From: Streptomyces globisporus
Lineage (GTDB): Bacteria > Actinomycetota > Actinomycetes > Streptomycetales > Streptomycetaceae
Reading direction: 5' to 3'
Assembly: GCA_014649555.1 (NCBI GenBank)
Contig: BMTG01000017.1
Span: forward strand, 109,567-173,566
DNA: 64,000 bases
In this document: positions 4,289 through 64,000 of the stretch, piece after piece
Position numbering within the stretch: the first letter of the stretch is position 1
Layout: every line of letters starts with the position of its first letter
Notes under the pieces: generated by a model
What the model was told of the DNA's origin: nothing
Databases searched by the model: none
What the model saw: only the letters and a program-made list of their open reading frames with translations
Program-made: the position numbers and the translations under genes

Positions 4289-4323
4289 CGCACTCGCACA
4301 GGTCCTGATGTGCTCGCATAGGT

Positions 4324-4363
4324 TGGGCCGGTCCCTTCCGCCGTACCGACGAGGACCGGCCCA
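4324..4363 (+). terminator. Hairpin after glpK overlapping the next start codon
   Basis: Perfect 11-base-pair inverted repeat (TGGGCCGGTCC at 4324-4334 and GGACCGGCCCA at 4353-4363) with an 18-base loop. The right arm contains the GAGG ribosome site and the A of the ATG of the acetyltransferase gene. It may end glpFK transcription, or mask that gene's translation start. Confidence 0.6.
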
Positions 4364-4890
4364 TGCCCAGCAGCACCAGCATCCGTCTGATAGAGCCCGC
4401 CGACGCCGCCCCGATCGCCGCCCACCGGGTACGGGACGCCGAGGCGTTCCGGCCGTGGGAACCGGCCCAGCCGGACGACTTCTTCACTCCGGAGGGCCAG
4501 GCGGAGCGGATCGAGGGCCTGTTGGCGGGATACCGGGCCGGTACGGTCTGGCCGGGCGTGGTGCTCGCCGGTGACGAGGTGATCGGGCAGATCACCGTCG
4601 GGGGCATCCTGCCGCAGCCGCATCTGCGCCGCGGCTCCGTCGGCTACTGGATCGCCTCGGTCGCCCAGAACCGGGGCCACGCCGGAAACGCCGTCGGGCT
4701 CGCCCTGCGGGTGATGCGGGAGGAGTTGGGCCTGCACCGCGCCGAGGCGTCCACCAACCTGGAGAACCTCCCCTCCCAACGGGTGCTGCGCCGCAACGGG
4801 TTCACCCCGTACGGCGTCGCGCACGCCGCGATCTTCCTCGACGGGAGCTGGCGGGACGGGCTGCTGTGGGAGCGGATCCTCGGCGACTGA
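4363..4890 (+). CDS. GNAT family N-acetyltransferase
   Basis: A 175-residue protein of the RimJ/RimL-like branch of GNAT acetyltransferases, which move an acetyl group from acetyl-CoA to an amine. Supporting stretches are IRLIEPADAAPIAAHRVRD at the N-terminus, VGYWIASVAQNRGHAGNAVG (the acetyl-CoA-binding loop, residues ~93-112) and EASTNLENLPSQRVLRRNGF, the classic end of these domains. The substrate is unknown. Its start lies within a hairpin shared with the end of the glpK transcript, and it converges with the siderophore permease operon. Confidence 0.87.
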   Translation: MPSSTSIRLIEPADAAPIAAHRVRDAEAFRPWEPAQPDDFFTPEGQAERIEGLLAGYRAGTVWPGVVLAGDEVIGQITVGGILPQPHLRRGSVGYWIASVAQNRGHAGNAVGLALRVMREELGLHRAEASTNLENLPSQRVLRRNGFTPYGVAHAAIFLDGSWRDGLLWERILGD

Positions 4891-10782: not shown

Positions 10783-13047
10783 TCAGCCCGACCTCGGCGG
10801 CTTCCGTGCGTCGAAGGCGAAGAGGGTGTTGTCGTCGGCGGCCACGAACAGCGCGCGGCCCGCGACGGTCACGCGGGGGCTCGCGTTCTGCTGCCCCGTC
10901 AGTCCGTCGGCCTGCGGGTCCGTCGTCCACAGCGCCTTTCCGTCGTCAGGCGACAGCGCGACGACCCGGCCGGTGGCCGAGCTGAAGTACACCGCTCCGT
11001 CGCCCGCCGCAGGCCCCGACGCGCCTTCCACCCCCGTCTGCCGCGCCCACTTCTTGCGGCCGGTGGCGGGGTCGAACGCCGTGACGCGACCGGTCTGCCC
11101 GCTGACGTAGACGGTGCCGTCCGCCATGCCGGGGGTGCCGTCGTACACCTGGCCGAACCGGGAGCGGGTCACCTTCCCCGAGGCCGGGTCGACGCGGACC
11201 ACCCCGTCGTATCCGGCCCGCGCCGTTCCCTCGTAGTGCGGGGAGAGGAGGACGAGGGAGCCGTCGGCTTCGCCGACCGGCACGGCGGGTCCTTGGACCT
11301 CGACGGGCCTGCCCAGCTCCCCGGAGTCGAGGGCGAGCGTCCGCAGGGTGGGGTTGCGCTGTTCGAGGTCGTCCACCTCCGCGTCGGTCGCGCACATAGC
11401 GAGGAGCCGCGGGCCCGCCGGGACGGGCGCGCACTGGGTACCTGCGGGGAACGGTGCCGACCAGGCGAGCTCGCCGCTGTGCGCGTCCCGGGCCTCGAAG
11501 CGGGAGTTGGAGGCATCGACGGTCACCACGGCGGAGCCGGCCACGACGGCGTCCTGGCTCCGGCCCGTGACGGCCGTCGACTGGGCGCCGGACGGCGTGG
11601 ACCACAGCTCCTCGCCGCTGTCCGCGTCGAGGGCCACGACCTCCTGGGGAGGGCCCTGCGGGGCGTCCTGGTCGGCGATGCGGTAGCCGATCACGGTGTC
11701 GTCGGTGGCACCGACCAGGTGCATGCCCTGAACGGGGACGCCGGGGCTCTTCGCGGTCCACACCCGCGATCCGTCCGCGGGGTTCACCCGGGTCGCGACG
11801 ACGCCGCCGCCTCCGCAGAAGAGCGCGTCGTCGCGGGCGACGCAGCGCAGCTCGTCGGGGATGTCCTCGCGGCCGCCCGGCACGGTCGTGCGCCACGGTT
11901 CGAAGCCGTCCGGGAGGGTGCCGCCCGGCGCGGCGGCGCTCCGCCCGGCGTCCGTGCCCCGGCTGTCCGTGCCGTCGCCGATCCCGTCGGCGCCGCCCGT
12001 CGTCAGCACGGCGACTCCCCCGCCGATCGCCGCCACCGCGACCGCCGCGGCGAGCACGGGCCGCCACCGGCGCCGCAGCCGGCCGCCGATCGCGGTGCCG
12101 GTGCTCCCCGAGTCGGAAGGGGCTGGGGTGGCCGGTGCGGGCGTGGTCGGCGGCGGGGTGTCCGGTGTCATGAGGTGGTGCTGGGTGAGCATGTCGCGGG
12201 TCCGGCCCGCGCCCGGCCCGCCGGTGGCGGTGCCGCCCAGGTCGGATGGCAGATCGCGCAGCAGCACGAGGAGTTCGTCCACCGAGGGACGCCGCTCGGG
12301 GTCCTTGTCCAGGCACGGCTCGACGACCGCCCGCAGGGCATCCGGCACGGCGCCCAACGACGGCTCCTCGTGCACCACTTGGTAAGCCGTGATGTAAGGG
12401 CTGTCCGCGTCGAATGGCCCGTGGCCCGTCGTCGCGTACACCAGGAGCGTCCCCAGCGAGAAGACGTCGGAGCGCGGCCCCACGCCGCGCGGTGCCTGCA
12501 ACTGCTCGGGCGACATGAAGGGCGGCGTACCGATGACCCGCCCGGTCATCGTCAGCGTCTGCTGGTCCACGGCGCGGGAGATGCCGAAGTCGATGACGCG
12601 GGGGCCCTCGGCAGAGAGGACGACATTCGAGGGCTTCAGATCGCGGTGGACGACTCCCACCCGGTGGATGTCGCGCAGCGCCTCCGCGAGACCGACGGCG
12701 AGCCTCCGCAGCTCCGGCCCGTTCAGGGGGCCCTCGTCGGTGATGCGCTGGGCGAGGGTGGGGCCCTCGATGTAGGTCGTCGCCATCCACGGCTGGTCGG
12801 CCTCGGGGGCGGCGTCGACCACGGCGGCGGTGAACGCGCCGCTCACCCGCCGTGCGGCGGCCACCTCCTGCCGGAACCGGATGCGGAACTCGTCGTCCCC
12901 CGCGAACTGCTGGTGGATCAGCTTGATCGCGATGGACCGGCCGGAACTCGTACGGGCCAGGAAGACCGTCCCCATGCCACCCGAACCGAGCCGCGCCTCC
13001 AGCGGATAGCCGCCGATCTCGGCTGGATCACCTCCGCGCAGCGACAC
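10783..13047 (-). CDS. Membrane Ser/Thr protein kinase with PQQ beta-propeller sensor
   Basis: A 754-residue eukaryotic-type kinase. The kinase domain (~residues 14-270) shows the Gly loop LGSGGMGTVFLA, catalytic-fold Lys42 (AIKLI), HRDLKPSNVVL, DFGIS and GTPPFMSPEQL, so it should be active. A Pro/Thr-rich linker leads to one membrane helix (VLAAAVAVAAIGGGVAVL, ~335-352). The outer ~370 residues are pyrrolo-quinoline-quinone-type repeats with recurring blocks such as VYFSSATGRVVALSPDDGKA and VYVSGQTGRVTAFDPATGRK. The signal sensed is unknown. The start is GTG with GGGAGG about ten bases upstream. Confidence 0.92.
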   Translation of the reverse strand: MSLRGGDPAEIGGYPLEARLGSGGMGTVFLARTSSGRSIAIKLIHQQFAGDDEFRIRFRQEVAAARRVSGAFTAAVVDAAPEADQPWMATTYIEGPTLAQRITDEGPLNGPELRRLAVGLAEALRDIHRVGVVHRDLKPSNVVLSAEGPRVIDFGISRAVDQQTLTMTGRVIGTPPFMSPEQLQAPRGVGPRSDVFSLGTLLVYATTGHGPFDADSPYITAYQVVHEEPSLGAVPDALRAVVEPCLDKDPERRPSVDELLVLLRDLPSDLGGTATGGPGAGRTRDMLTQHHLMTPDTPPPTTPAPATPAPSDSGSTGTAIGGRLRRRWRPVLAAAVAVAAIGGGVAVLTTGGADGIGDGTDSRGTDAGRSAAAPGGTLPDGFEPWRTTVPGGREDIPDELRCVARDDALFCGGGGVVATRVNPADGSRVWTAKSPGVPVQGMHLVGATDDTVIGYRIADQDAPQGPPQEVVALDADSGEELWSTPSGAQSTAVTGRSQDAVVAGSAVVTVDASNSRFEARDAHSGELAWSAPFPAGTQCAPVPAGPRLLAMCATDAEVDDLEQRNPTLRTLALDSGELGRPVEVQGPAVPVGEADGSLVLLSPHYEGTARAGYDGVVRVDPASGKVTRSRFGQVYDGTPGMADGTVYVSGQTGRVTAFDPATGRKKWARQTGVEGASGPAAGDGAVYFSSATGRVVALSPDDGKALWTTDPQADGLTGQQNASPRVTVAGRALFVAADDNTLFAFDARKPPRSG

Positions 13048-50427: not shown

Positions 50428-52428
50428 TCACGTTACGTCGAGCAGAGCCCGGGCGTGCTCGTCGGGGAAGAGGCCGTCCCGGGCCACGCGCTCGCGCAGC
50501 TCCTGTTCGGTGAGCGGGTAGACGTTCCAGTAGCGGCCCCAGTCGTCCTGGTAGTCCAGCACCGGGTCATGGCCGGGAACGGTGTCCAGCGCCAACTGGG
50601 CGCCGCGCATGACCTCGTGGAACGAGTGGTGGGCCGCCGACAGCGACATGGCGATCATCCCGGCCCGGATCAGCCCGAGGTCCAGGTCGATCCCCCACTG
50701 GTCCCGCATCCGGGCGGCGTGCACGAGGAAGCGGTAGGTCGACCCGGCGGTGCCGGTCAGGACCAGGCCTCCCGTGTCCTCGGACGCCTCCTGGAGACCG
50801 GTGTTCATGGCGAGGTCGTACACGGAGGACGCGGGCATCCGGGTGAGCCCGAGGCAGTTCACGGCGAAGGGACGCTCGGCCCGGCTCAGGGGTGGGCGCA
50901 CGTCGTCGGGGTCCCTCTGGACTGTGTGCTCGCGGGTGGCGCGGGCGAGCGCCGCCTGCTTCTCCGCCACGGAGAGGGTGTCGTCCAGGTTCAACTGTGC
51001 GGCCAGCCGCTCCAGTTCTGCGCGGCCCGCGGCCTGGCGGCGACTCGGCCGTTCCTGCTCGATCTCCGGCTCGGGGTCCTCCCGGCCGCCCAGCATCTCG
51101 GGCACGAGGTCGCTGGAGATGCCCTGGAACAGGAAGGTCACCAGCTCCCTCAGATGGCCGGTGCGCAGCACCTGCTGGAGGGCGGGCCTGCTGGTGCCGA
51201 CCGTGCCGGGCATGCTCGGGTTCTCGCTGCCGAAGGTGGCGAGGGCTCCCGGGTACTGCTGCCAGGCCCGGTCCCACACGGCGCGCGCCATCGTGCGGAA
51301 CTCCTTCGTCACCGCCTCGTTCTCGGCGAGGTGTTCGGCCAGTCGCCGCTCGAAAGCGACGGACTCCTCGGCGTACCGGATACGGGCCTGGCCCCAGGCG
51401 GGCACCGGTGCGCCCCGGTCGGGGCTGGGCGGACCGGCGCCCGGGGCGGGCCGGGTCCCGGTGGGAGGACGTGGTGGTGGACTCGGTCGTGCCGGGGCGT
51501 GTGAGCGGGGTCCCGGGGCGCGGTTCCGTACCGGTGGGGCGTGACGTCCCGGAGGCGGCGGGATCGGCGGTCGGGCGGGGCGGCGCGGGTGGTTCGGTGC
51601 GGGGCGGCTCCCCGGCGGGGGCAGGGCGTGCGGGTGCGGGCGGCGAGGTGTGCCGGTGGTCGTCGATGTCCACGGTCACCACCCGCCCCCGGTCCGGGTC
51701 GGTGGCGCGACGGACCCGCTGGGCGTCCAGGGTGAGCGTGAAGTCGGAGAGCCGGACGTGCGGGCCGGGGGTGCCGTCCTGGAAGGTCGTCCTCAGCAAC
51801 CGGGACAGCCGGTCCCCAAGCGCCTTCCCGACCGCCTCTGCCCGCTTCTGGCCGCTGGCCCGGGAGCGGTTGCCGTGTCCGGTGACGGTGACCGTCGGCA
51901 GGGGCAGGCCGTTGGCGTGGTTTCACAGGCCGGTGCGGGCCAGGGACAGGGCCAGGGCGTCCAGATTCTCGTCCGCGTCCGCCGACGGGGTGTGCTGCTG
52001 CTCGGCGAAGCGGACGTTGCGCCGGTCCGGGCGGAGCGCGTGGCCGTGCAGGGCGACCGTGGTGAGCGGATTGGAGACGGCCGGTGAACGGTCGGACAGC
52101 AGCGCCGCGTTGACCGCGTGGGCGGACTCGCCGGGGCGCTTGCTGTAGGCCCGGAAGAACCACTGGTCCTTGTCGTCCAGGATCGGTGCCGCCGCCCGTA
52201 CGGCGTCCCGGGCGCGAGCGCGGGACTGGTCCACCTCCCGCTGGGCCAGGGCGTGTTCCGGGCGGTCCTCGGTGAAGTACCACCGGACGTGCTCGGCCTC
52301 GTGGACGGCAGCCAGGGCCCGGGCCGCACGGACGAAGCCTTCCAGGCGGGCGATCTCCGCCGGGGCTGCGCCGTCGCGCCGGGCGGTGGCGGCGCGGCCT
52401 TCCGACTCCCGTGCCAGGGAGCTCAGTT
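50428..52428 (-). pseudogene. Broken C-terminal part of a very large protein
   Basis: Coding sequence runs in pieces. The upstream piece, open from ~52428, includes AEHVRWYFTEDRPEHALAQ and RPDRRNVRFAEQQHTPSADA, and stops at an in-frame TGA (51923-51925). The same frame resumes with NHANGLPLPTVTVTGHGNRS and LSDFTLTLDAQRVRRATDPD. Between about 51480 and 51405 it shifts frame into a C-terminal domain (from RYAEESVAFERRLAEHLAEN to HARALLDVT). The style recalls the tails of giant Streptomyces proteins annotated as lonely-Cys-domain proteins; that is recollection, not proof. The N-terminus is missing, apparently cut at the lectin remnant. Confidence 0.7.
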
Positions 52429-52430
52429 GG

Positions 52431-52650
52431 TGTCTACAGCGAGCAGAACAAGCCGATCTGGGCCGCCATGACCTTCGGCCAGAACCACCGGGCGATCTTC
52501 CAGCCCGACGGCAACCCGGTCATCCACAACGGCGACGACCGGGCCATCCGGGCCTCCAAGACGCATGACTTCGGGGGTGCCCAGATGGTGCTGAGGGCCG
52601 ACGCCAAGGTGGTCATCGTGCACCAGGGCAAGGTGGTCTGGTCGACGTGA
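52431..52650 (+). pseudogene. Truncated bulb-type mannose-lectin domain
   Basis: A 73-residue stretch from VYSEQNKPIWAAMTFGQNHR, through AIFQPDGNPVIHNGDDRAIR to MVLRADAKVVIVHQGKVVWS, matching the QxDGNxVxY-type repeats of bulb lectins. It begins abruptly at the junction with the minus-strand broken gene, lacks a signal peptide, and has degraded sugar motifs (NPVIH for NLVIY). Probably the 3' end of a gene cut by a deletion. Confidence 0.7.
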
Positions 52651-52673: not shown

Positions 52674-53942
52674 TCAGTGCCTCGACAGGAGGAGTTCGAA
52701 GAGTCCCTCACCGGACGCCCTGTCCCGTTCCCGTCGGTCCGTCTCCTTGGCGGGCACCGCCCTCGGCCCTTTCGGTCTGAGTCTCAGCACCTCGTCGAGG
52801 GCCGTCAGCCCGACCGTCCCGCCGACGAAACCCGAGGGATCACGGACGAAGGCGAGTGTCGCGGCGGCGAGAACCCCCTCGACATCCCGGCGCTCCGATC
52901 TGAGTGAGTGCAGAAGCCTGTTGGCGGCGACCGGCACCCCTTCCGGTCGCCGTAGTCCGAGGAGGGAGCGCAGCGAACGCCCTCCGAGCTCCTCGATCCC
53001 CTGCTCGGCGAGAGCGGCGAACACCGCCTGCGCCTCGTCGTCCGTCGGGTGCGGCTCGCCTGGAAGCGGTGGCAGGGACTCCTGGGCGCTGCCGGGCAGG
53101 GCGGCTCGGCAGATCAGCGCCCTCAGCCGGGGAGGAGGATAGGTGTGATCCTGCAACGGCTGCGAGGCGGAGGCCGTCATGGCGTCGGTGAGCGCCCAGA
53201 GGTAGGCGCTGCCACAGGCGAGGGTCGCGCAGATGTCCGCGAACGCCTCGCCGAGCCACCGCTCCCACCGGACGAGGGAAGCCGGCTCCAGCCCCGCGTG
53301 GTCTCGCAGGTGTGCGGTCAGGGAGACGGTGAGGCGCAGGTCGTCCTCGATGTGGTGCCCCGTCTCGTGTGCGACGGCCAGAAGGGCGGGAAGGTGCCGG
53401 CCGGAGGACCAGGGAATCCCGATGAGAGGAAAGGGAAGGTGCTGTGCCACCGCTTGCCCGTCCCTGGTCCGCTGCTTGCCGAACGGAAGCAGCTTCTCGA
53501 ACGCGCTGCCGCGAGGCACCGCGAAGGGGACAGGATGCCGGCCGAAGAAGGTGAGGGGCGGTTCCCAGGCCGGGGTGCCTGACGTGGCCGCGAGGCGGAG
53601 GGGCTGGTACACCGACCAGGCGAGTTCGTCGGCCGCGTCCAGGACGATTCTCTGGCTCGGCAGACTCCGCATCATCAGCTTGCCACGGAAGAAATCCCAC
53701 AGATGGTGGAGGTCGAGCAGGATATCGGCCGACCTGTCGGCCTTCTGCGCCGCCGGGAGGGCATCCACCTGGTCGAGGGCGGACAGCAGGACACGGGTGA
53801 CGCTGTGGATCTGCGAGCCGTGCTTCTCCAGATCGCCCGTCGTGGCGGCCTGCCCCCAGTCGTGCAGTTCCCCCCGGAAGTCGGCCAGGACCTGGCGGAT
53901 CTCGTGCTCGCGACGCGACGGATAACCCTCATCGGGATGCAC
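52674..53942 (-). CDS. Predicted zinc metallopeptidase (HExxH) of the CHAT/STAND operon
   Basis: I recognise no named family. The 422-residue protein has a helical N-terminal half, then the zincin motif ALLAVAHETGHHIEDD (His192, Glu193, His196) and, 36 residues on, GEAFADICATLACG, whose Glu232 could be the third zinc ligand as in gluzincins. No signal peptide or membrane helix, so it acts inside the cell. GTG start with AGGAGG overlapping the previous stop codon; the gap is 12 bases. As last gene of the operon it may be an effector or may process another component. Confidence 0.72.
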   Translation of the reverse strand: MHPDEGYPSRREHEIRQVLADFRGELHDWGQAATTGDLEKHGSQIHSVTRVLLSALDQVDALPAAQKADRSADILLDLHHLWDFFRGKLMMRSLPSQRIVLDAADELAWSVYQPLRLAATSGTPAWEPPLTFFGRHPVPFAVPRGSAFEKLLPFGKQRTRDGQAVAQHLPFPLIGIPWSSGRHLPALLAVAHETGHHIEDDLRLTVSLTAHLRDHAGLEPASLVRWERWLGEAFADICATLACGSAYLWALTDAMTASASQPLQDHTYPPPRLRALICRAALPGSAQESLPPLPGEPHPTDDEAQAVFAALAEQGIEELGGRSLRSLLGLRRPEGVPVAANRLLHSLRSERRDVEGVLAAATLAFVRDPSGFVGGTVGLTALDEVLRLRPKGPRAVPAKETDRRERDRASGEGLFELLLSRH

Positions 53943-53954
53943 CTGCCCGGCCTC

Positions 53955-56900
53955 CTACGATTCGGAGACACGCAGGGCCGACGGCGTGGCGAACATGGAG
54001 GCGCTGACGGCCTCGAGAATGTCGTCGCCCCACTCCATGTCCGTTCGCTTCCCGAGGTCCCGCCCCTGCTTCTCCCGGAGGAGCGCCACGGCACGCAGCG
54101 TCTTGAGGAGTTCCAGCAGGGACGCCCCCTCCACCAGCGCGGTGCCCAGCACCATGGTCTGCAGGTCGGACGCCCTGACCAGTCCGGCGCCGATCACGGC
54201 CGGGGTGAGCCCCGAGGCGAAGAGTGCGGCGGCGAAGTGGTTGCGCAGAACCAGTTGGAGCGGGATGTCCGCCGGCGAGCTGGGGCGTGGCGGATCCAGG
54301 ACGATCAACGGTTGAGTCCCGGGGTCGAATCCGGCCAGCCACTGGACCAGTCTGCTCGCGTCGAGGTCGGATCCGGAGACCTTGCTGTCCAGCCGGTCAC
54401 TGTGGCTGAGCCCCGTGGGGGAAAGGTCGAAGTAGGGAGTGGAACCGGATTTCAGCTTGAGGGGAGCGTGTACGTGCAGGAGGGCAGGCGGTCCCTTGCG
54501 GGGCGGAGGCAGAGCCGCAGAGCTGAACAATTGCATCGGCTCGCACCCCTGGGTCTCGTAGATCTCCGACAGCGGCTGCCGGGCGGTCCAGGGGTCCTCG
54601 GACCGGGAGGAGTGCGACGGCCCGCTGTCCAGGACCAGGACCGTGCGGGAGCCGTGCTGGCCCTGTGTGCGGGTCTTGTTCTCCCGCAACAGCGACCAGA
54701 GCAGGGACAGGGCAGCGGTCGACAGACCGAGTGACAACAGCGCGCGTGAGGTGCTGCCCATCTTCCGCGACAAGGTGGTGTCGAGCGCGGTGACGAGTGC
54801 CGCCGCCGTGATGCCGCCCAGCAGACCGTCCGCCACGATCTCCATGTCCTGCTTGCGGCGCAGAGCGGCCTGAAGGGCTCGTACGTCGGCGGACTCGGCC
54901 GCGTCCGGGAGATTCCGATACAGGACGACGTCCTCATCGGCCCCCTCCGTCAGCAGGGAGAACTCCCACGGGAAGGCATGGAGGGAGACGTCGTCGGACT
55001 GGACCTGAACGGACACGGAGGGAGCGCGTCCCTCGGACAGGACGGTCATGCCGGGGATCACCCGCTGTGTGGCGGCTCGCCAGTCATGGAGCAGTTCGTT
55101 CGCCAGAGCCACGAGGTCGCCGCCCGGGTGGCTCCCCGGTTCGGGTGAGAGGGCCATGACACGCTCGTCGAGGCTCTGGGCCAGATTCTGCACGATCCGG
55201 ATGGGCGCATGGAGCGGCTCGGCGTATCCGAGGCGGGCGAACATGCGGTTCACCGCGGCGGGCAGGGCGGGCTCGTAGGGGAACGATCCGTCGGGCGGCT
55301 CTTCGAGGACCTGTCCGACGGCGTTGAGGACATGGGCCTCCCACACCGACTCCTGGTGTACGCGGCTCAGTTCCTCCGCCGCCCGGCGCAGGGCCTCCTC
55401 CCTGGCATGCCCCGGAGCGTGCTGGCAGAAGATCCAGCGGGCCGCTGCGGTGAGCAGCGGAACGTCGTCCCCGGCCACCGCGAGAAGATGCTGCCCTGTG
55501 CGGGCGTCCGCCTCTCCGGTGAAGCGCATTTCGGCCCGGGCCCTCCGCCAGAGGTGCAGAGGGTCGTTGGGGGCGGTGGGAAGGTGCGGTGCCGGATACG
55601 CGCGCTCGCTGAGAGCCAACGCCCGGTCCTTGCCCCCGCAGACACGCTCGAACTCGGCGACGAGCTGCAGTTGGACGTGCCGGTCCGGGCTGTCCGGTCC
55701 CGGTCGGACGGTGGAGGCGAACAGGCTCTGCATCTGGGCGAGTTCGTCGGGCGGGAAGGCGCTCGCACTGCCGGAGGGGTATGCGGTGAGACCGTCGAGG
55801 GCGAGGAGCCTGGCGGACGGAGGCTGAACCGATCGCAGGGCCTGGACGACCTCGGCGGCCCGGTGGGGCGCCGCGATCACGATCGCGGCACCTCCTCGCA
55901 GCAGACTCTCCTGTGACGTGACCGGCACCTCCAGAAGGGCGGAATCCGGCGGGCTGTAGCCCTGGCAGAGCAGTTCGTTCCACATAAGGGCGGACTGAAC
56001 GGCCCACGCACCGGCGCCGTCGGCGACCTTCAGCTGTCCGAGGGCGGCCGCGGCCCGTCGTAGATCGCCGAGATCGCGGGCGAGGAAGCGGGCGTACAGC
56101 AGCAGGCACTGCGGGTGCCCCTGGGGAAAGCCCAGGTCGCTCCAGAGCCCTGCGGCGTGGTCGAAATGGGCCTGGGCCCGGTCCACCGCCAGGAGTTCAC
56201 CCTCGATGGCCGCGCGCGCCATGACGCTGCGCGCCAGGAAGCGGTGACGGCTGGGGCCGACGCCTGCCGTGGCCAGGCCATCGGCCTCGTCCAGAGTGGC
56301 GAGCGCCTCGGTGGAGCGGCCGAGCTGGCGGTAGGCGCGGGACGACAGGAGGCAGGCCTCCAGGCGGTGCGAGGTGTCCGTGGGCGACTGGAGGAACTTC
56401 AGCGTGGCGAGCGCCTCGGTGGGCAGGAAGGACCGGAGCTGCCCGCGCGCCTTGGCGACCCTCGCGCGCGCTCGCAGCGAGGCGGCCGCGCTCTCGACGC
56501 TTGTGCCGGAACGCGCCCGGATCGCGGAGGAGGACGCACCCGGATTGATCACCGCGTCCTGCAGTTCGAACGCCTGGGAGAGACGCCCGTCCCGCTCCAG
56601 TCGCTGCGCCAGTTCGAGTGAGATCAGCAGATGGCTGGTGTCGGCTTTGCGCGACCTGGCGATGTGCAGCGCGATGCGGTAGGTGGCCTCGGCCGTGACG
56701 TCGTTGCGTGAACTCTGGATGCGGGCGAGGGTGACCTGGAGCCTCTCGCGCCATCTGGCCTCGCCCTCGTCGGCGAGCGCGCGACGGATGAGCGCTTCGG
56801 CCTCCTCTCCCTTCCCGCAGCTCGCCAGCACGCCGGCCCGGAGAATGTGCTCGGCGGAATCCACCGTGACGGACAGCGGTGCGGCGACCCGGAGGTCGTC

Positions 56901-59147
56901 GACGAGGGCGAGCCGGTGCTCGACCTCGTTCCACAAGGGGTCGGCCGGATTGTAGGTCGTCTCCTCGGCCTGCTTCAGCGCCAGCGCCGTCGCGATCGTC
57001 AGGTGGGCGGCGATGACGACACTGTGGCTGACGAACAGCCCGCCGTCGAGATGGAGTCGCGGCGTTCCCTCGTGCAGGTACTCCTCGCCGAGAACCTCTT
57101 CGCCGAGCTGCCGCATCCCGTCGAGGTCGTGCGCCTCGTCGGCGTCGCGGACCGCTTGGCGCCAGGTCTGCTCGGCGCGGGGATCCCGGGCCTGGAAGCG
57201 GTGATAGATCGCCTCCTTGATGTACCCGATGCGCTGGTCCGGATCAGCCCCGGCGAGCTGTTCGAAGCGTTCCGCGAAAGCGTGGTGCAGACGGGACGCG
57301 ACCGGCTGGCGGGAGACGAGCTGTCGCATCGGGGCCACCACGTTGACGTGGAACACGACGACGGAGTCGTCTCCGGCCTGCCGGGAGACCCACGACGCGG
57401 CCCCCGCGTAGTCCAGGAGCCGGCGCCAGGCGTTGTCCAGCGCCTGCGGCGTGAGCGGTTCGGGCGACGTGGGGAAGATGTCCGAACGGCCCCGCAGATG
57501 GGGGACGTCCTTCAGGGGATCGTCGTCCCGCCCGGTTCCGCTGATCCCCTCGGTCAGCCAGGGGGCCATGACGCCCTTGACATCGTCGGCTCGAAGTTGC
57601 CGCGGGATGACGCCGTAGCGCAGCAGCCAGCGGACGGTCGGATCCGTGATGCGGTCGAGGACCCGTTCGATGAGATAGCGGAGATGCGGCTCCTCGCGCA
57701 GCGCGAGCGCATCAGGAGTGAGGGTCGGGTCGCTGTCGATCACATCGGCGCACAGGGCCAAGGTGAAAGGCAGGCCGTTGGCTTTGGAGATCGCCGCGCG
57801 CACGAGTTCCGGGTCGTCGATGCGACGCTTCTCGACGAGATAGGCGCGGGCCTGCTCCTCGCTGAACGGACGGACCTGTGTGTGCTTGACCCTGTTCCTG
57901 CCGAATCCGGCGAACGACTCCGGCAGATCCGTGCGGAGATCACAGCGGCCGGCGAGGATGAGGCGGAGCCCCGGGCACAGGTCCACGAGCCGGCCCAGGA
58001 GACGCATGACCTGCTCGGCCTCCGCCCGGCCGTGCAGGACGAGCTCTTCCACGGTATCCACGACGAGGACGACGGGGGCCGCGGGACGGGCTCGGTTGAG
58101 GCGGTCGGCGAACACCGCCAGCAGCTCCTCCTCGACGGCCCCGGAATCGAGCGATGTGATGTTCTGGGCCGCTTCCCGGGCCAGTCGCGACGGCCGGCGG
58201 TCGAGAAGGACCCGGTAGGCGGCGTACCCTTCCAGGCGCTCGAACGGACGGCCGGGGAGCCTTCGTTCGAACTGGTCCGCGATCTCCAGCAGTACCAGCC
58301 ACGGATGCCGGCCGACCGCTCTCGCACTGGTGTAGTCGAAGTCGACGCGGGCGCAGAGCACGTCCCGGGCCGACGGGACCCAGTGCCGCGTGACCAGCCA
58401 GCGCAGCTGCATCGTCTTGCCCGCACCACCGGGCGCGTACAGGTGCCAGACCCTGCGGCGTCCCTCCAGGAAACGCTCGGCATCGCGAATCAGACTCGTC
58501 GGCGGCAGGAACTGGGCCGCCCTGGCGTAGTCGGCCGCCCAGTACGAACGCGCCCGTACGTACCCGGCACGGTCCTGGAGTCGTTCCCGGAGTTCGGGCG
58601 ACAGATGCCCGAACCGGTCGGGGTCCTCCAGTACGTCGATCAGATCGGTGCAGGCGGCGAAGTCACGCCGGTCGTCCGCCTCGGAGAACATCTCGTCGAA
58701 CCGGGCCAGTGCCGTTTCCGGGGTGGCGAGCAGCAGGTGCCGCAGTTCCTCGGTCCGGTCGCCCTCGGCTGCGAGGTAGGCGGCGATCCGTTGCTCCAAC
58801 AGCAGGAGCTGTGCGTACTGGGAAGGCTGTGACGAGTCGGTCCAGTGCCGGAAGTAGGCGCTCCGGTCGCCCGGCGGCAGTGTGTAGCTGTCAGGTTCCC
58901 CGCGGGCCGGTACGACGATCTGCCGCTCCAGGAGTTCCGTGAGGTCCGGGAGCTGGGAGTCCGGTGCCTCCCCGGAATTCCTCAGGACCTCTTCGTACAT
59001 ACGGAGATCGAAGATCCTGGCCGCCGCACAGGCGTGGAGCACCGGCCTCCAGGGCTCCGGGACGAGAGACCGGAAGATGACGTCCGGAGATTCCCCCGCA
59101 GCCAGGCGGCGCGTCAGCTCAGCCGTCATGTCGCCACCGCTCGTCAT
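53955..59147 (-). CDS. Giant STAND NTPase with helical repeats and a pseudo-CHAT C-terminus
   Basis: A 1730-residue protein. An N-terminal helical/winged region (1-215) precedes a STAND-type NTPase: Walker A APGGAGKT (238-245), Walker B VVLVVDTVEE (Asp364), LILAGRCDLR sensor and a winged helix. Residues ~600-1400 are TPR-like helices. A possible membrane hairpin follows (~1438-1486, VADGLLGGITAAALVTALDT and ALLSLGLSTAALSLLWSLL). The last ~240 residues resemble CHAT, with LLHVHAP for the His strand, but the Cys motif LVVLNACR is LIVLDPPR, so the catalytic Cys is Pro (~1620). ATG overlaps the previous stop by four bases (ATGA). Role: inferred sensor/scaffold in a conflict system. Confidence 0.85.
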   Translation of the reverse strand: MTSGGDMTAELTRRLAAGESPDVIFRSLVPEPWRPVLHACAAARIFDLRMYEEVLRNSGEAPDSQLPDLTELLERQIVVPARGEPDSYTLPPGDRSAYFRHWTDSSQPSQYAQLLLLEQRIAAYLAAEGDRTEELRHLLLATPETALARFDEMFSEADDRRDFAACTDLIDVLEDPDRFGHLSPELRERLQDRAGYVRARSYWAADYARAAQFLPPTSLIRDAERFLEGRRRVWHLYAPGGAGKTMQLRWLVTRHWVPSARDVLCARVDFDYTSARAVGRHPWLVLLEIADQFERRLPGRPFERLEGYAAYRVLLDRRPSRLAREAAQNITSLDSGAVEEELLAVFADRLNRARPAAPVVLVVDTVEELVLHGRAEAEQVMRLLGRLVDLCPGLRLILAGRCDLRTDLPESFAGFGRNRVKHTQVRPFSEEQARAYLVEKRRIDDPELVRAAISKANGLPFTLALCADVIDSDPTLTPDALALREEPHLRYLIERVLDRITDPTVRWLLRYGVIPRQLRADDVKGVMAPWLTEGISGTGRDDDPLKDVPHLRGRSDIFPTSPEPLTPQALDNAWRRLLDYAGAASWVSRQAGDDSVVVFHVNVVAPMRQLVSRQPVASRLHHAFAERFEQLAGADPDQRIGYIKEAIYHRFQARDPRAEQTWRQAVRDADEAHDLDGMRQLGEEVLGEEYLHEGTPRLHLDGGLFVSHSVVIAAHLTIATALALKQAEETTYNPADPLWNEVEHRLALVDDLRVAAPLSVTVDSAEHILRAGVLASCGKGEEAEALIRRALADEGEARWRERLQVTLARIQSSRNDVTAEATYRIALHIARSRKADTSHLLISLELAQRLERDGRLSQAFELQDAVINPGASSSAIRARSGTSVESAAASLRARARVAKARGQLRSFLPTEALATLKFLQSPTDTSHRLEACLLSSRAYRQLGRSTEALATLDEADGLATAGVGPSRHRFLARSVMARAAIEGELLAVDRAQAHFDHAAGLWSDLGFPQGHPQCLLLYARFLARDLGDLRRAAAALGQLKVADGAGAWAVQSALMWNELLCQGYSPPDSALLEVPVTSQESLLRGGAAIVIAAPHRAAEVVQALRSVQPPSARLLALDGLTAYPSGSASAFPPDELAQMQSLFASTVRPGPDSPDRHVQLQLVAEFERVCGGKDRALALSERAYPAPHLPTAPNDPLHLWRRARAEMRFTGEADARTGQHLLAVAGDDVPLLTAAARWIFCQHAPGHAREEALRRAAEELSRVHQESVWEAHVLNAVGQVLEEPPDGSFPYEPALPAAVNRMFARLGYAEPLHAPIRIVQNLAQSLDERVMALSPEPGSHPGGDLVALANELLHDWRAATQRVIPGMTVLSEGRAPSVSVQVQSDDVSLHAFPWEFSLLTEGADEDVVLYRNLPDAAESADVRALQAALRRKQDMEIVADGLLGGITAAALVTALDTTLSRKMGSTSRALLSLGLSTAALSLLWSLLRENKTRTQGQHGSRTVLVLDSGPSHSSRSEDPWTARQPLSEIYETQGCEPMQLFSSAALPPPRKGPPALLHVHAPLKLKSGSTPYFDLSPTGLSHSDRLDSKVSGSDLDASRLVQWLAGFDPGTQPLIVLDPPRPSSPADIPLQLVLRNHFAAALFASGLTPAVIGAGLVRASDLQTMVLGTALVEGASLLELLKTLRAVALLREKQGRDLGKRTDMEWGDDILEAVSASMFATPSALRVSES

Positions 59148-61171
59148 CCGAACTCCTGGGCCTTGGCCGCGTCTTTCCACTGCGTTACGTACGGTGTCAT
59201 GACCTGGAAGAAGTTGACGTCGAAATGCTCTGCGGGTTGTTTGCTGATTCCATCGAGAATTCTCATGGTCATCGCATCGGGCTTACATCCGAGGCGATGG
59301 CTGTAGATTCTGGCCAGCCTCATGAGCTGTGACTGTTTGAAGTCTCCGACCTGCACACGCCCGATCATGTGCGAGTCCCTGTCGGGAATGATCAGGCGCA
59401 CGGTTTTGTCCGGGGCGACGATCACCAGACGCAGCGGTTCCGCTCTGCCGTAGGCGATGGGGCGGATCAGTCCCTCGTACAGCTCCCGGCTCAGCGACTC
59501 CCCCATCACGGTGTCCGCGTGGTCGAGAGCGAGGACCAGGGGGCGGCCACCCGCGGCCCGGCGCAATGTCTGGACGAAAGCGTCCATGATGGCGGACTTG
59601 CGCTCATCGGCGTGCCCGACGTCGTCGTTGAAGGACAGCCATTCGTCCTCCTCCGCATGCGGCACGCCCTCCACCACCCCGGGGCCGCCGGCGGCCAGCC
59701 GGTTGAGCTCGCTGTTGAAGTCCCCGAAGGCGTCCTTCGGAAGGGAGCAGAGGCGTTCGGCGGAGGTCGCCTCCTGGCGGATCATGCGCAGAACGGCCAG
59801 CCAGTCCTTGTTCCTCGGACTGGGGCGGGATCCGTGGCCCGGGACCACGAGCTTTTCCGCGAGATCGACGGAAATGACGTGGTGTCCACGGAGGAACCAC
59901 GTGCCGAGGCACCAGTTGGCCAGCCAGGTCTTCCCGGTCTTCTCCTGCTCGCTCTGGGATTGACCGCTGATGACCAGCACGGGTTTTCTCGTGGTCACGT
60001 CCGGGTCACGCGGATCGTCCAGCGCCCACCACGCCTTTCGGCGCTCCTCCACCCGGCCGACGAATCTCCGCAGATCGACGTACTGTTTGTGCCGGAGCAT
60101 GGCGTCGGCCCCCGCGCCCTCCGGGTTCGGCAGAATCCGTGGCAGTACGGCATCGGGCTCACTGCGGGTCAACAGCACCGGAAGTGCCCAGGCTCCGGTC
60201 TTCTCGGGAAGTCGCCCGAGGGCCTGACGGGTGGCGTTGACACACCGGTCGACCGGATGACCGTCGATCAGGAATGTGTAGAAGCTCTCGGCGAAGACCA
60301 CCGCCACGGGGGATTCGATATCGGCTTGCATCGAAACGACGGCTCGCGTTCCGGCGTCGAGAAACGCGTGGGCGATCCCCCCGACCCAGTCCGCCGGATC
60401 CGCGGCAGCGGTGCGGCAGGCGTTGAGCACGACAAGGCCCGGCCTCCACTCGGACAGATGGGGAACCTCGTCCGCGGTCAGTCGCCACTCGTGCCCGCCC
60501 GGTGAACTGAACGCCAGCTCCGCCCCTCCGTCACCCGGCCGGGGCATCCCGTGCCCGATGAAGTGCAGGACGTGCGGCTTCAGTTCCTCGATGGCCTCGC
60601 ACAGCTCGATCAGGCTCTGGGGGCAGTCCAGCACCTCGACGTGCGCACGGCCGGGCAGCTCCTCCAGCAGACCCGACAGAACAGCCAGTTCCTGTTCAGC
60701 GAGAAGCTGCTCGTCGTCCGCGGGCGTCGCCACGATCACCAGGACGCGACGCGGGCCGAACTCGGGATCCACCTTCCGCGCCTCGCCCACGAGTCCTCGC
60801 CGGAGCAGCACCGCGGAATCCCGCCACAGCCACGTCCCCTGGTGCCACAGCAGCTCCCAGGGCAGCGAACGCAGCTCCGGCGGCTCGATCGTCAGCACCG
60901 CGCGCATGGGGTCGTCAGGCGTGGCGTGCTGCCGCAGAGCATTCCAGCCTTCGGCCACCCCCTCACGGAACAGCGCCCGGTGGAGGGAGTCTCCTGCCGC
61001 TCGCCGGTCCGCTTCATCGGCGTTGCGGTCGAAGACCGACCGCAACGCGTCACGGTCGGGGAGGGGCCCCAGCGAGGCCGTCGCTCCCGGACCGTCATCC
61101 GCGGCGAGGATGACATCGAACTCCGCCGCCCGGGGTGCGGCGACGACACGCAGCGAAACACTCTTGTCCAT
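59144..61171 (-). CDS. CHAT-domain protease fused to a P-loop ATPase
   Basis: A 675-residue protein. Residues ~80-335 are a CHAT (caspase-like) protease with catalytic His207 (HVLHFIGHGMP) and Cys252 (GLVVLNACRTAA), and the preceding LRSLPWELLWHQG typical of the family. A linker with VDLRRFVGRVEERRKAWWAL leads to a P-loop domain: an unusual Walker A (ISGQSQSEQEKTGKTW, Lys414), Walker B LVLALDHAD (Asp550), similar to ATPases that follow CHAT domains in bacterial conflict operons. No strong ribosome site; 23 bases after the gasdermin-like stop. Probably the protease that cuts the upstream protein. Confidence 0.9.
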   Translation of the reverse strand: MDKSVSLRVVAAPRAAEFDVILAADDGPGATASLGPLPDRDALRSVFDRNADEADRRAAGDSLHRALFREGVAEGWNALRQHATPDDPMRAVLTIEPPELRSLPWELLWHQGTWLWRDSAVLLRRGLVGEARKVDPEFGPRRVLVIVATPADDEQLLAEQELAVLSGLLEELPGRAHVEVLDCPQSLIELCEAIEELKPHVLHFIGHGMPRPGDGGAELAFSSPGGHEWRLTADEVPHLSEWRPGLVVLNACRTAAADPADWVGGIAHAFLDAGTRAVVSMQADIESPVAVVFAESFYTFLIDGHPVDRCVNATRQALGRLPEKTGAWALPVLLTRSEPDAVLPRILPNPEGAGADAMLRHKQYVDLRRFVGRVEERRKAWWALDDPRDPDVTTRKPVLVISGQSQSEQEKTGKTWLANWCLGTWFLRGHHVISVDLAEKLVVPGHGSRPSPRNKDWLAVLRMIRQEATSAERLCSLPKDAFGDFNSELNRLAAGGPGVVEGVPHAEEDEWLSFNDDVGHADERKSAIMDAFVQTLRRAAGGRPLVLALDHADTVMGESLSRELYEGLIRPIAYGRAEPLRLVIVAPDKTVRLIIPDRDSHMIGRVQVGDFKQSQLMRLARIYSHRLGCKPDAMTMRILDGISKQPAEHFDVNFFQVMTPYVTQWKDAAKAQEFG

Positions 61172-61194
61172 AGGAAACTACCCGCGGCGCTCTG

Positions 61195-62016
61195 TTACCG
61201 GTCCTCGGAATCCGGCACCGACTGGTGCTCCGGGGAGACAGGTTCCAGGACCGACTCAGGTTCGTCGCGGGCCTCCTCCAGCAACAGCGGCGGCACCGGC
61301 ACGGGCCCGGCGCCGCGGCCCGGCTGCCGCGGCCCGTAGTCCGCCTCGACGTCACGGAACCACCGCTTGCGCAGGCGAATCACACGGAAGAACGGCGTGC
61401 AGGCAGGGCCGGTCCACTGCTGCCCCAGCTTCCTGGCCGCGAGGATGGAAGCCCCGCCCGCGAGATCGGCGAGGCCCAGCGCGGCCTGCCCCAGACCCGC
61501 CTGAAGGCGTAATTCGGCGCTGCCCTCACCAGTGGCGCTGACCAGAACGGTCCCCGAGTCCGCCGAGACCACTTGGGCGACCGCGATCAACGAGTCGTCC
61601 CACTGATCCCATGTCAGCTGGACCAGCGCGGCGGCGAGCGCCCGCTGGTCCTCCACACCGGTCTCCCGTAGCCCCTTGAACACGACCAGCGCCGACTTCT
61701 TCTTCGAGAACGAGACCATGGCGCCCAGGTCGGCGGCCGCAAGCCCGGTGGCCCCGTCCATGACGACGCCGGCGGTCTTGAAGCGAACGGAGGCGGATCC
61801 ATGGCTGTCGTGCAGAAAGTCGTTACGAGGTGTGCCCGGCCGTTCGGTGAACGGCACCCCCAGGTGCGTGAGCGTTCCGGCGGGCCTGACGTGACCGCCG
61901 ACGTCGTGGAACACCTGCCCCAGCTGCACTCTTTCGGACGGCGGCCAGGCCAGCCACCATCCCTTCCAGGTGTCGCCCACCGCTGCCCGGTACGTCTTGA
62001 ATGTCTTGCTCACCAT
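61195..62016 (-). CDS. Gasdermin-like pore-forming protein (candidate)
   Basis: A 273-residue protein with no name I can give firmly. The pattern resembles bacterial gasdermins: an opening domain with VQLGQVFHDVGGHVRPAGTL, a hydrophobic strand pair (LGAMVSFSKKKSALVVFKGL), the WDQWDDSLIAVAQVVSADSG then TVLVSATGEGSAELRL strands, and a hydrophobic glide (LGLADLAGGASILAARKLG). The last ~45 residues are Pro/Glu-rich and could form a removable inhibitory tail. The N-terminal Cys for lipidation seen in many bacterial gasdermins is absent. First gene of an operon with a CHAT protease, the normal partner of gasdermins. Confidence 0.58.
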   Translation of the reverse strand: MVSKTFKTYRAAVGDTWKGWWLAWPPSERVQLGQVFHDVGGHVRPAGTLTHLGVPFTERPGTPRNDFLHDSHGSASVRFKTAGVVMDGATGLAAADLGAMVSFSKKKSALVVFKGLRETGVEDQRALAAALVQLTWDQWDDSLIAVAQVVSADSGTVLVSATGEGSAELRLQAGLGQAALGLADLAGGASILAARKLGQQWTGPACTPFFRVIRLRKRWFRDVEADYGPRQPGRGAGPVPVPPLLLEEARDEPESVLEPVSPEHQSVPDSEDR

Positions 62017-62345
62017 GGACCGCCCCCCAGCGCACTGTGTCGTCGACAAGAATAGTGACGACCCCGCCGAAATTTCGTCGGTTCGGACAAACCCGGGCCC
62101 TGTGCACCACGGGTGTGTGCACCCGGTTCGCCGCGAGCCGCGCCCGGCGCAGCCAGGGCGCGCCACCTCGCGCATGTCCCGGTCAGACTTTTCCTTGGTC
62201 CATACCTCTTGACGATTGGTCTAGTCCTTCTTAAGGTCACGCCAACACTGCGGGGGTGCCGAGGAGAGAGTTACGCGCTCATGGCAACGCAGGGTTGACG
62301 GGTCAGGGATTCCCCTGACCCCATGGAGCCACTCATGGAGCAGCC
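62017..62345. other. Divergent promoter region: gasdermin-like operon and chitinase
   Basis: 329 bases between two divergent genes. On the minus strand, a TATTCT -10-like motif and the perfect palindrome CGAAATTTCG (62068-62077) lie about 50-60 bases before the gasdermin-like ATG. On the plus strand it holds the DasR-like sites and chitinase promoter. The middle (62090-62190) shows nothing recognisable. Confidence 0.5.
62195..62237 (+). promoter_or_regulatory. Chitinase promoter with two DasR-like repeats
   Basis: TTGACG (62209-62214) and TAAGGT (62232-62237) are 17 bases apart. TTGGTCCATACCTC (from about 62195) and TTGGTCTAGTCCTT (62216-62229) are direct, degenerate copies of the Streptomyces dre consensus TGGTCTAGACCA. 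The second lies between -35 and -10. Paired repeats of this type are usual before Streptomyces chitinase genes and give N-acetylglucosamine control by DasR. Confidence 0.75.
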
Positions 62346-64000
62346 TTGAGTACAGAAACACGATGGCGCCGTACCAGATCCCCACAGAGCGCCTCCCCGG
62401 GCAGGCGGGCCAAGGCCGTCGCGGGAGCCACGGCACTTCTCCTGCCGCTGGCCGCCATGGTGGGCCTCGCGTCCCCGGCGGAGGCCGCGGCCTCGGCCAC
62501 CGCCGTGTACACGAAGAAGTCCGACTGGGGCAGCGGGTTCGAGGGCCAGTGGACGGTGAAGAACACCGGCACCACCACGCTCAGCACCTGGACCGTCGAG
62601 TGGGACTTCCCAGCGAACACCAAGGTCACCTCCGCCTGGGACGCCACCGTCACCAACTCCGCGAACCACTGGACCGCGAAGAACCTCGGCTGGAACGGCA
62701 CCCTGGCCCCCGGTGCATCCGTCTCCTTCGGCTTCAACGGTTCCGGCTCCGGCGCGCCCTCCGGCTGCAAACTCAACGGCAACCCCTGCGACGGCGGCTC
62801 CACCAACCCCGGTGACAACGCCCCCTCCGCTCCGGGCAAGCCCACCGCGAGTGACATCGCCAACTCCTCGGTGAAGCTGTCCTGGGCGGCCGCGACGGAC
62901 GACAAGGGCATCAAGAACTACGACGTCAAGCGCGACGGTGCCACGGTCGCAACGGTCACCGGGACCACGTACACCGACACCAACCTGAGCGCGGGCACGG
63001 ACTACAGCTACGCCGTGGTGGCTCGCGACACCGCCGACCAGACAAGCCCGGCCTCCGCCTCCACCGCCGTACGCACCACCGGTGGCGGTGGCGGCGGTGA
63101 GAACCCCGGTGGCAACGGGAAGATCAACCTCGGCTACTTCACCAACTGGGGTTCCTACACGGCGAAGAACCTCGTCACCTCAGGCTCCGCCGAGAAGATC
63201 ACGCACATCAACTACGCCTTCGGCAACGTGCAGAACGGCAAGTGCACCATCGGCGACGCCTACGAGGACTACGAGAAGTCCTACACCGCCGCCCAGTCGG
63301 TCGACGGCAAGGCCGACGCCTGGGACCAGCCGCTGCGGGGCCACTTCAACCAGCTGCGCAAGCTGAAGGCGCAGTACCCGCACATCAAGATCCTCTGGTC
63401 CTTCGGCGGCTGGACCTGGTCCGGCGGCTTCGGCCAGGCCGTCCAGAATCCGACCGCGTTCGCCCAGTCCTGCTACGACCTGGTCGAGGACCCCCGCTGG
63501 GCCGATGTCTTCGACGGCATCGACCTGGACTGGGAGTACCCCAACGCCTGTGGTCTGACCTGTGACACCAGCGGCCCGGCCGCGTTCAAGAACATGATGC
63601 AGGCCATGCGTGCCAAGTTCGGCGCGAACAACCTGCTCACCGCGGCCATCACCGCGGACGGCTCCAACGGAGGCAAGATCGACGCCGCCGACTACGGGGG
63701 CGCCGCGCAGTACATCAACTGGTACGACGTGATGACCTACGACTACTTCGGCACCTGGGCAGCGCAGGGCCCGACGGCCCCGCACTCCCCGCTGACCTCA
63801 TACCCCGGCATCCCGGCGGAGGGCTTCAACTCGGCCGACGCCATCGCCAAACTGAAGGCCAAGGGCGTCCCGGCTTCCAAGCTGCTCCTCGGCATCGGCT
63901 TCTACGGCCGTGGCTGGACGGGTGTGACCCAGTCGGCTCCGGGTGGTACCGCCACGGGCCCGGCGGCCGGAATCGAGCCCGGCAACCAGTACTACAAGGT
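62346..64000 (+). CDS. chiC: Secreted chitinase, CBM2-FnIII-GH18 (partial, runs off window)
   Basis: At least 551 residues of a ~600-residue ChiC-type exochitinase. TTG start with GGAG seven bases upstream; a long twin-Arg-like basic start and signal peptide end near PAEAAASA. Next is a CBM2-type cellulose/chitin-binding domain (TAVYTKKSDWGSGFEGQWTV, NLGWNGTLAPGASVSFGFNG), a fibronectin III domain (PSAPGKPTASDIANSSVKLS), a Gly linker, and the GH18 barrel with SFGGWTWSGGF and catalytic FDGIDLDWEYP (DxxDxDxE). It hydrolyses chitin outside the cell. The final part lies beyond the window. Confidence 0.95.
   Translation, partial: MSTETRWRRTRSPQSASPGRRAKAVAGATALLLPLAAMVGLASPAEAAASATAVYTKKSDWGSGFEGQWTVKNTGTTTLSTWTVEWDFPANTKVTSAWDATVTNSANHWTAKNLGWNGTLAPGASVSFGFNGSGSGAPSGCKLNGNPCDGGSTNPGDNAPSAPGKPTASDIANSSVKLSWAAATDDKGIKNYDVKRDGATVATVTGTTYTDTNLSAGTDYSYAVVARDTADQTSPASASTAVRTTGGGGGGENPGGNGKINLGYFTNWGSYTAKNLVTSGSAEKITHINYAFGNVQNGKCTIGDAYEDYEKSYTAAQSVDGKADAWDQPLRGHFNQLRKLKAQYPHIKILWSFGGWTWSGGFGQAVQNPTAFAQSCYDLVEDPRWADVFDGIDLDWEYPNACGLTCDTSGPAAFKNMMQAMRAKFGANNLLTAAITADGSNGGKIDAADYGGAAQYINWYDVMTYDYFGTWAAQGPTAPHSPLTSYPGIPAEGFNSADAIAKLKAKGVPASKLLLGIGFYGRGWTGVTQSAPGGTATGPAAGIEPGNQYYK

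Follow-up and report, generated by a model that had tools for sequence, protein, structure and literature searches.

A four-gene Streptomyces operon encoding a predicted gasdermin, a CHAT protease-ATPase, a STAND ATPase, and a putative metallopeptidase

Introduction

Bacterial gasdermins (bGSDMs) encoded beside caspase-like proteases are already known, as are multi-gene operons that combine NLR, caspase-like, and Peptidase U49 genes, and the exchange of effectors (PMC9612521, PMC9079055, PMC13236601). In one review, the legend to Fig. 2 presents bGSDM operons of several genes, among them Peptidase U49, caspase-like/CHAT, and NLR/NACHT genes (PMC9612521). A bGSDM operon of four genes has been reported from Lysobacter (PMC9079055). 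In CARD-NLR systems, the gasdermin is exchanged for other effectors (PMC13236601).

We describe here a four-gene operon within a 64,000-nucleotide stretch of the Streptomyces globisporus genome (the window; contig BMTG01000017.1). A sequence-only reading had held this operon to exceed the described gasdermin operons of two or three genes in complexity. Since multi-gene bGSDM operons are in print, as excerpts of PMC9612521 and PMC9079055 make clear, the claim of greater complexity is not borne out. The operon itself is not described in the excerpted text of two papers on conflict systems from Kaur and coworkers (PMC7159879, PMC8195603), nor in the titles and abstract openings of literature on gasdermins and CHAT proteins in Streptomyces or Actinobacteria.

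Results

Operon organization

The four genes (A–D) are located on the minus strand at positions 52674–62016, and all have open reading frames in the translated window. Gene A (61195–62016; 273 amino acids) encodes a predicted gasdermin and putative pore-forming effector. Gene B (59144–61171; 675 amino acids) encodes a CHAT (caspase-like) cysteine protease domain at residues ~60–331, followed by a C-terminal P-loop ATPase region. Gene C (53955–59147; 1730 amino acids) encodes a STAND/NACHT ATPase having a middle region with sub-threshold TPR matches and a C-terminal, apparently inactive CHAT-like domain. Gene D (52674–53942; 422 amino acids, GTG start) encodes a putative all-helical metallopeptidase. 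The A/B, B/C, and C/D spacings are 23, –4, and 12 bases, the ATG of gene C overlapping the stop codon of gene B by 4 bases. The sequence-only reading had seen four tightly packed, intact genes here, along with a CHAT His207/Cys252 pair, two P-loops, and an HExxH site. Its coordinates, lengths, gaps, and motifs are all correct, the P-loop of gene B consisting of a sub-threshold AAA_16 match with a conserved GK[T/S].

By gene layout and Pfam matches, a region assigned to neither strand (62017–62345) separates gene A from a divergent GH18 chitinase gene, and the predicted operon promoter is likely to lie within it. The chitinase gene (62346–63998, plus strand) has CBM2 and fn3 domains and is truncated at the contig end. 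The sequence-only reading had placed the operon beside decayed genes, which is partly right: of these neighbors, 48736–49149 matches just positions 362–454 of a 461-position aldehyde dehydrogenase profile, and the chitinase gene runs off the contig. Close to where gene D ends lies a 79-amino acid open frame (52411–52650) with high third-position G+C; it has no Pfam match and is possibly a gene remnant.

Gene A has a predicted gasdermin fold

A sequence search with the gene A protein in Pfam, PADLOC, NCBIfam, and the PDB returned nothing, and a profile of 11 relatives had only two matches among PDB sequences, both chance matches to polyketide synthases. The AlphaFold2 model of the protein, built from 11 sequences, has a pLDDT of 83.7 and a pTM of 0.82. 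In a Foldseek comparison of this model with the PDB, ranks 1–12 of 165 matches with E-values up to 10 were all gasdermins. The top match was the Vitiosangium pore (9a84; E 1.1e-5), and the other matches in the top 12 included 8sl0, Neurospora RCD-1, a Trichoplax gasdermin, 7n51, 7n50, 7n52, GSDMD, and GSDMB, such that bacteria, fungi, Trichoplax, and mammals are all represented. The same search with the model of the unrelated gene D protein gave no match better than E 0.26; therefore, the search does not return gasdermins for just any model. The earlier proposal that gene A is patterned like bacterial gasdermins, for which the predicted fold had been set in advance as the test, thus agrees with the model.

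Superposition on known gasdermins yields low TM-scores (0.28–0.44) and high rmsd values (11.6–18.2 Å), and the match therefore depends on the Foldseek E-values and on the uninterrupted run of gasdermins. Flexibility of these β-sheet proteins, together with comparison of inactive and pore states, could account for the low scores, which limit the certainty of the modeled fold all the same. The low TM-scores, and the lack of sequence similarity to known gasdermins, would also suit a gene A protein of another membrane-active β-sheet type, for example with a MACPF/CDC-like fold, for which the Foldseek match would be superficial. We regard this as very improbable, as the 12 best of the 165 PDB matches are all gasdermins and the next, a complement C5b8 chain, has an E-value of 0.09 and a probability of 0.04.

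The predicted gasdermin has no large C-terminal domain; instead, a conserved tail of ~45 residues follows the fold. A palmitoylated N-terminal cysteine has been described for most, but not all, bacterial gasdermins (PMC9612521, in excerpt). The sole cysteine of gene A is Cys206, and the protein therefore lacks an N-terminal cysteine for palmitoylation. Among the 12 loci carrying all four genes (see below), a cysteine within 12 residues of an ATG start occurs only in L040.

A phage origin of gene A is not supported: no relatives were found in plasmids, phages, or viral contigs, and structural comparison with viral proteins produced no match below E 0.063.

A CHAT protease-ATPase and a STAND protein with a pseudo-CHAT domain

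The CHAT domain of gene B lies well above the curated Pfam cut-off (PF12770; E 3.2e-26; 92.9 bits versus a cut-off of 24), while its ATPase region matches AAA_16 below the cut-off (E 0.021). The catalytic His207 and Cys252 and the GK[T/S] motif are each present in 19/19 loci having the B-C-D core. CHAT domains are rare: the window's own genome has a single match, and the 19 same-genus genomes searched (G000–G018) have 43 in sum.

Gene C matches NACHT (E 1.6e-6; 28.5 bits, cut-off 26.7) and AAA_22 (E 5.8e-6; 27.1 bits, cut-off 27) narrowly above threshold, and its middle region matches TPR_8 below threshold (0.17). Its C-terminal region (53955–55190, minus strand) contains the sequence blocks FPWEF, LLHVHAPL, and LIVLDPP. 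When aligned by hhalign with the CHAT domain of gene B using nine close relatives, this region gave a probability of 7% and nothing beyond the region of the PWE motif. With divergent relatives added (18 gene C and 19 gene B sequences), the probability rose to 88.7% (E 2.6e-6, in a one-template comparison), and FPWEF and LLHVHAPL of gene C paired with LPWEL and VLHFIGHG of gene B. In a more permissive run, the alignment of this pair extended to LIVLDPP of gene C and LVVLNAC of gene B. The columns aligned to the catalytic His and Cys are both Pro in the gene C of the window, the Cys column being reached in the permissive run only. These alignments support a CHAT-related domain lacking the catalytic His and Cys (pseudo-CHAT), as the sequence-only reading had suggested for this giant protein.

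Between the FPWEF and LLHVHAPL blocks is an insert (VRALQAAL...DGLLGGIT; motif VRAVQAALN..DGVWG..T..AL). An insert profile had three PDB matches at E ≤ 10, all of them peptidoglycan-binding proteins (E 0.037, 1.5, and 1.5). The Pfam families PG_binding_1/3 matched the insert at E 0.013–0.2 in three of 10 gene C C-termini (L016, L023, and L074) and did not match it in the other seven; another scan of C-termini gave 2/9 for PG_binding_1 and 2/9 for PG_binding_3. The agreement of these individually sub-threshold matches hints at a resemblance to peptidoglycan-binding domains. The idea that the insert is tied to the gasdermin type of locus only was dropped, since L074, which has a small membrane protein in place of the gasdermin, shows a similar weak match. 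Likewise dropped were two transmembrane helices in the pseudo-CHAT domain, as relatives, inspected by eye, do not retain the hydrophobic stretch.

A putative metallopeptidase

Gene D contains an HETGHH motif at residue 192 (H192-E193-x-x-H196) and a GEAFAD motif at residue 231, which includes E232. The HExxH motif, Glu232, and Asp236 are present in 19/19 core loci. The protein has no Pfam match, and hence no Pfam peptidase family, and its AlphaFold model (pLDDT 79.6) has no Foldseek match in the PDB below E 0.26; therefore, we place it in no named metallopeptidase family. A PADLOC model, peptidase_U41, matches it at E 2.7e-7.

Conservation of the four-gene set

Gene A relatives are sparsely distributed. 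A protein search of 199 same-genus genomes found eight with a match, including the window's own, of which seven are believable; a scan of a species-level genome collection found 10 loci; and 296 genomes of the class, searched with a profile, gave four matches. Pooling of these searches, with duplicates counted once (L009 = L020, L012 = L022, L013 = L024, and the overlapping L014 and L049), left 18 distinct gasdermin-family matches. Seventeen of the 18 adjoin a CHAT gene or a piece of one. The eighteenth (G138, L015) was judged a chance match (E 8.2e-4 over 110 residues, in an unrelated gene region). The CHAT partners are of several types: CHAT-ATPase, TPR-CHAT, and two other large CHAT proteins.

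The sequence-only reading had made co-occurrence of the four genes in other genomes a check on its proposal, and this was found: the order A-B-C-D on one strand occurs in 12 genomes, namely that of the window and 11 others (G129, L010; G174, L011; L016–L023; and G456, L040) with protein identities of 35–63%. One of these, Virgisporangium (L023), belongs to another family and has all four genes. The alignment of gene C from L040 is broken into two parts, with 29% identity in the second. The dN/dS ratios of the four genes, calculated for two genome pairs, are 0.13–0.39, indicating purifying selection. In L011, gene C is split by a frameshift at ~12028–12124, due to either decay or assembly error, and the other three genes are open.

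The remaining five gasdermin-family/CHAT loci (L024, L025, and L047–L049) had no gene C or D in the stretch examined, gene D having been sought by tblastn. In S. cinnamoneus (L024) and S. cyaneus (L025), the gasdermin-family gene is beside a TPR-CHAT gene. In G097 (L049), it accompanies an 858-amino acid CHAT protein whose gene starts ~350 bases downstream, and in G404 (L047) a large CHAT protein of 1410 amino acids as read, with an uncertain start. In G215 (L048; ~3766–4720, minus strand), a truncated gasdermin-like piece of 90 amino acids lies beside a CHAT-like piece, the decaying remnant of such a pair.

The gene A tail and a proposed mechanism

From residue 226 to ~260, the gene A tail reads DYGPRQPGRGA-PVPVPP-LLEEA-DP-VLE. 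The PGRG element is present in 11/12 four-gene loci, all of which encode the CHAT-ATPase, the exception being L040 with PRQPGGFGAH. It is present in none of the four other intact loci, where the gasdermin is partnered with other CHAT proteins and the loops differ; the TPR-CHAT pair does retain the VP..VLEEI-like helix downstream. A tail loop that tracks the type of partner would look like a partner-specific cleavage loop. Shared descent, however, accounts for this sequence pattern equally well, because the 12 four-gene loci form one group on the gene D tree and the correlation between PGRG and partner is thus confounded. According to excerpts of the literature, adjacent caspase-like proteases cleave bGSDMs following a Leu or Arg situated ~20 residues from the C-terminus (PMC9612521), and fungal HET-Q1 loses 40 residues (PMC10989679). 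The gene A protein would be cut around GPRQPGRG, a loop ~40 residues from its C-terminus.

We propose, with a probability of roughly 0.7, that these genes constitute a bacterial gasdermin operon for regulated cell lysis, in which C controls B, B cuts the conserved tail of A, and the resulting pore kills the cell. The gasdermin would be kept inactive by its conserved tail. Gene C, with its STAND ATPase and dead CHAT domain, would sense a trigger and serve as a scaffold, and would activate gene B, a CHAT protease having its own ATPase region. Gene B would then cleave gene A in the conserved Arg-rich loop (~GPRQPGRG), and the released N-terminal part would form membrane pores, leading to cell death. 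Gene D would be a second protease, part of the control core rather than an effector. As to purpose, we favor phage defense, by analogy with precedent and because of the patchy distribution.

The B-C-D core with other first genes

Profile searches with gene D found matches in 10/296 genomes of the class, in 12/150 genomes of the family of G463, and in 8/35 of the family of G456. Across all searches, 29 stretches, a subset of the matches, were examined. In six genomes of the class (L041 and L070–L074), B, C, and D occur in the same order and a small membrane protein occupies the slot of the gasdermin. This protein is 132–151 amino acids long in the five loci in which it was measured, that of L072 having been read in part. 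A simple hydrophobicity scan of the same five predicted two transmembrane helices in L041, L070, and L071 and one in L073 and L074. Its Pfam matches are weak and mixed; SLATT_fungal, given as a family of two-transmembrane effectors, matches at E 0.03 in L074, and other membrane families have similar or better E-values. The 12 gasdermin loci and the six small-membrane-protein loci fall into two groups on the gene D tree, so that a single effector replacement suffices. Several independent swaps were therefore dropped as an explanation, the tree requiring only one change between the 12 and the six.

The persistence of gene D where the effector is replaced is what places it in the control core. 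This bears on whether D, and not the CHAT protease, might cleave and activate the gasdermin, with B acting upstream of D or on another substrate. In favor of this, gene D has a complete HExxH/Glu site in all 19 core loci and closes each four-gene locus. It was not found, however, in the stretches examined of the five loci in which a gasdermin-family gene accompanies CHAT, and it stays, tied to the core, in loci whose gasdermin has been replaced. Because gasdermin-family genes thus occur with CHAT where no D was found, and D persists with no gasdermin, we consider activation by D quite unlikely and retain B as the predicted activator.

More distant relatives of the core were also found. A B-C-D set is carried by a conjugative plasmid of Sinorhizobium terangae (L082:4139–13380), where it is preceded by proteins of 226, 285, and 306 amino acids; by eye, the second has several hydrophobic stretches and the third has one. 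The set is followed by a gene for a C25 peptidase and, at a greater distance, by WYL, PD-(D/E)XK, and UvrD genes. In four distant loci of the class (L045, L075, L077, and L081), a D-like gene is followed by a B-like CHAT gene and a large gene (1668–2282 amino acids predicted), which matches gene C in L045 only. Among distant kin of the core, L076 (16341–17309, plus strand) and L078 (900–1847, minus strand) have related genes of 315–322 amino acids after the large gene. These have no Pfam or PADLOC match and are possibly another effector; L079 and L081 have similar genes on the opposite strand. A plasmid of Bradyrhizobium quebecense (L083:8304–16376) carries a D-like gene, two CHAT genes, and phospholipase D-like and patatin-like genes, a possible further effector combination. 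A Paraburkholderia plasmid stretch (L084) has a weak relative of gene D.

The distribution of the genes also speaks to their purpose. The named hosts are filamentous actinomycetes, and a gasdermin pore might serve a developmental or stress program of Streptomyces, with mycelial death or release of cell contents, instead of phage defense. A precedent comes from excerpts of PMC13236601, in which a CARD-NLR-like system controls the release of gene transfer agents. Against this, believable gasdermin-family matches occur in just 7/199 same-genus genomes (the window's own included), the flanking genes vary between loci by eye, and a relative of the core resides on a conjugative plasmid. A defense module therefore fits better than a core developmental pathway, and a developmental role is to us unlikely.

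Discussion

The operon adds to the gasdermins a predicted family that was missed by the sequence libraries used, in a widely studied genus. The wiring of a putative sensor, a dead protease, a live protease, and a metallopeptidase resembles an inflammasome. Because the proteases are kept while the membrane effector changes, these loci provide a handle on protease-effector pairing and on the role of the metallopeptidase. In addition, the existence of CHAT-ATPase and TPR-CHAT families with different tail loops makes protease-gasdermin specificity testable by partner exchange. A far-reaching and highly speculative extension of the lysis operon is that the core serves as a platform for cell death that swaps its effectors and extends across Actinomycetota and Pseudomonadota. 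The gasdermin would be one plug-in, and the peptidoglycan-binding-like insert in the dead CHAT domain of gene C would sense cell-wall fragments set free as phages attack. If true, bacteria would have in this operon an equivalent of NOD-type sensing coupled to a gasdermin.

Comparable arrangements include the two-gene Streptomyces TPR-CHAT pairs (L024 and L025), in which a 33% identical gasdermin-family protein is likewise encoded beside CHAT. These have TPR rather than an ATPase region, a different tail loop, and no STAND giant or metallopeptidase that we could find in the stretches examined.

The CARD-NLR gasdermin systems of Lysobacter and relatives (Wein et al. 2025; PMC13236601), compared through excerpts, similarly have a gasdermin downstream of a protease and an NLR-like ATPase. 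They also have an exchangeable effector slot, filled there by phospholipases and endonucleases and here by a small membrane protein. The proteases of the window, in contrast, are of CHAT and metallo-type: the Pfam matches of its four genes include no trypsin-like protease, and general Pfam profiles gave no CARD match at E ≤ 1 in these genes.

The ‘inflammasome-like’ multi-gene bGSDM operons, compared by the legend text of Fig. 2 in PMC9612521, share with the window a gasdermin, a peptidase, a caspase-like protease, and an NLR across the operons of that figure. Their peptidase is Peptidase U49, whereas gene D has no Pfam peptidase match.

Lastly, the described pairs of bGSDM and caspase-like/CHAT protease (Johnson et al. 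2022; PMC9612521, PMC9079055, PMC10989679), again taken from excerpts, have the same gasdermin fold, predicted here, with a short tail and no large C-terminal domain, and the same tight operon with an adjacent CHAT protein bearing a catalytic His and Cys. Unlike these, gene A is missed by the sequence libraries used and by the PDB profile search and has no N-terminal cysteine, and its CHAT partner has an ATPase region and is not a TPR-CHAT. To this shared plan of gasdermin and protease, the window adds a STAND giant with a probable pseudo-CHAT domain and a putative metallopeptidase.
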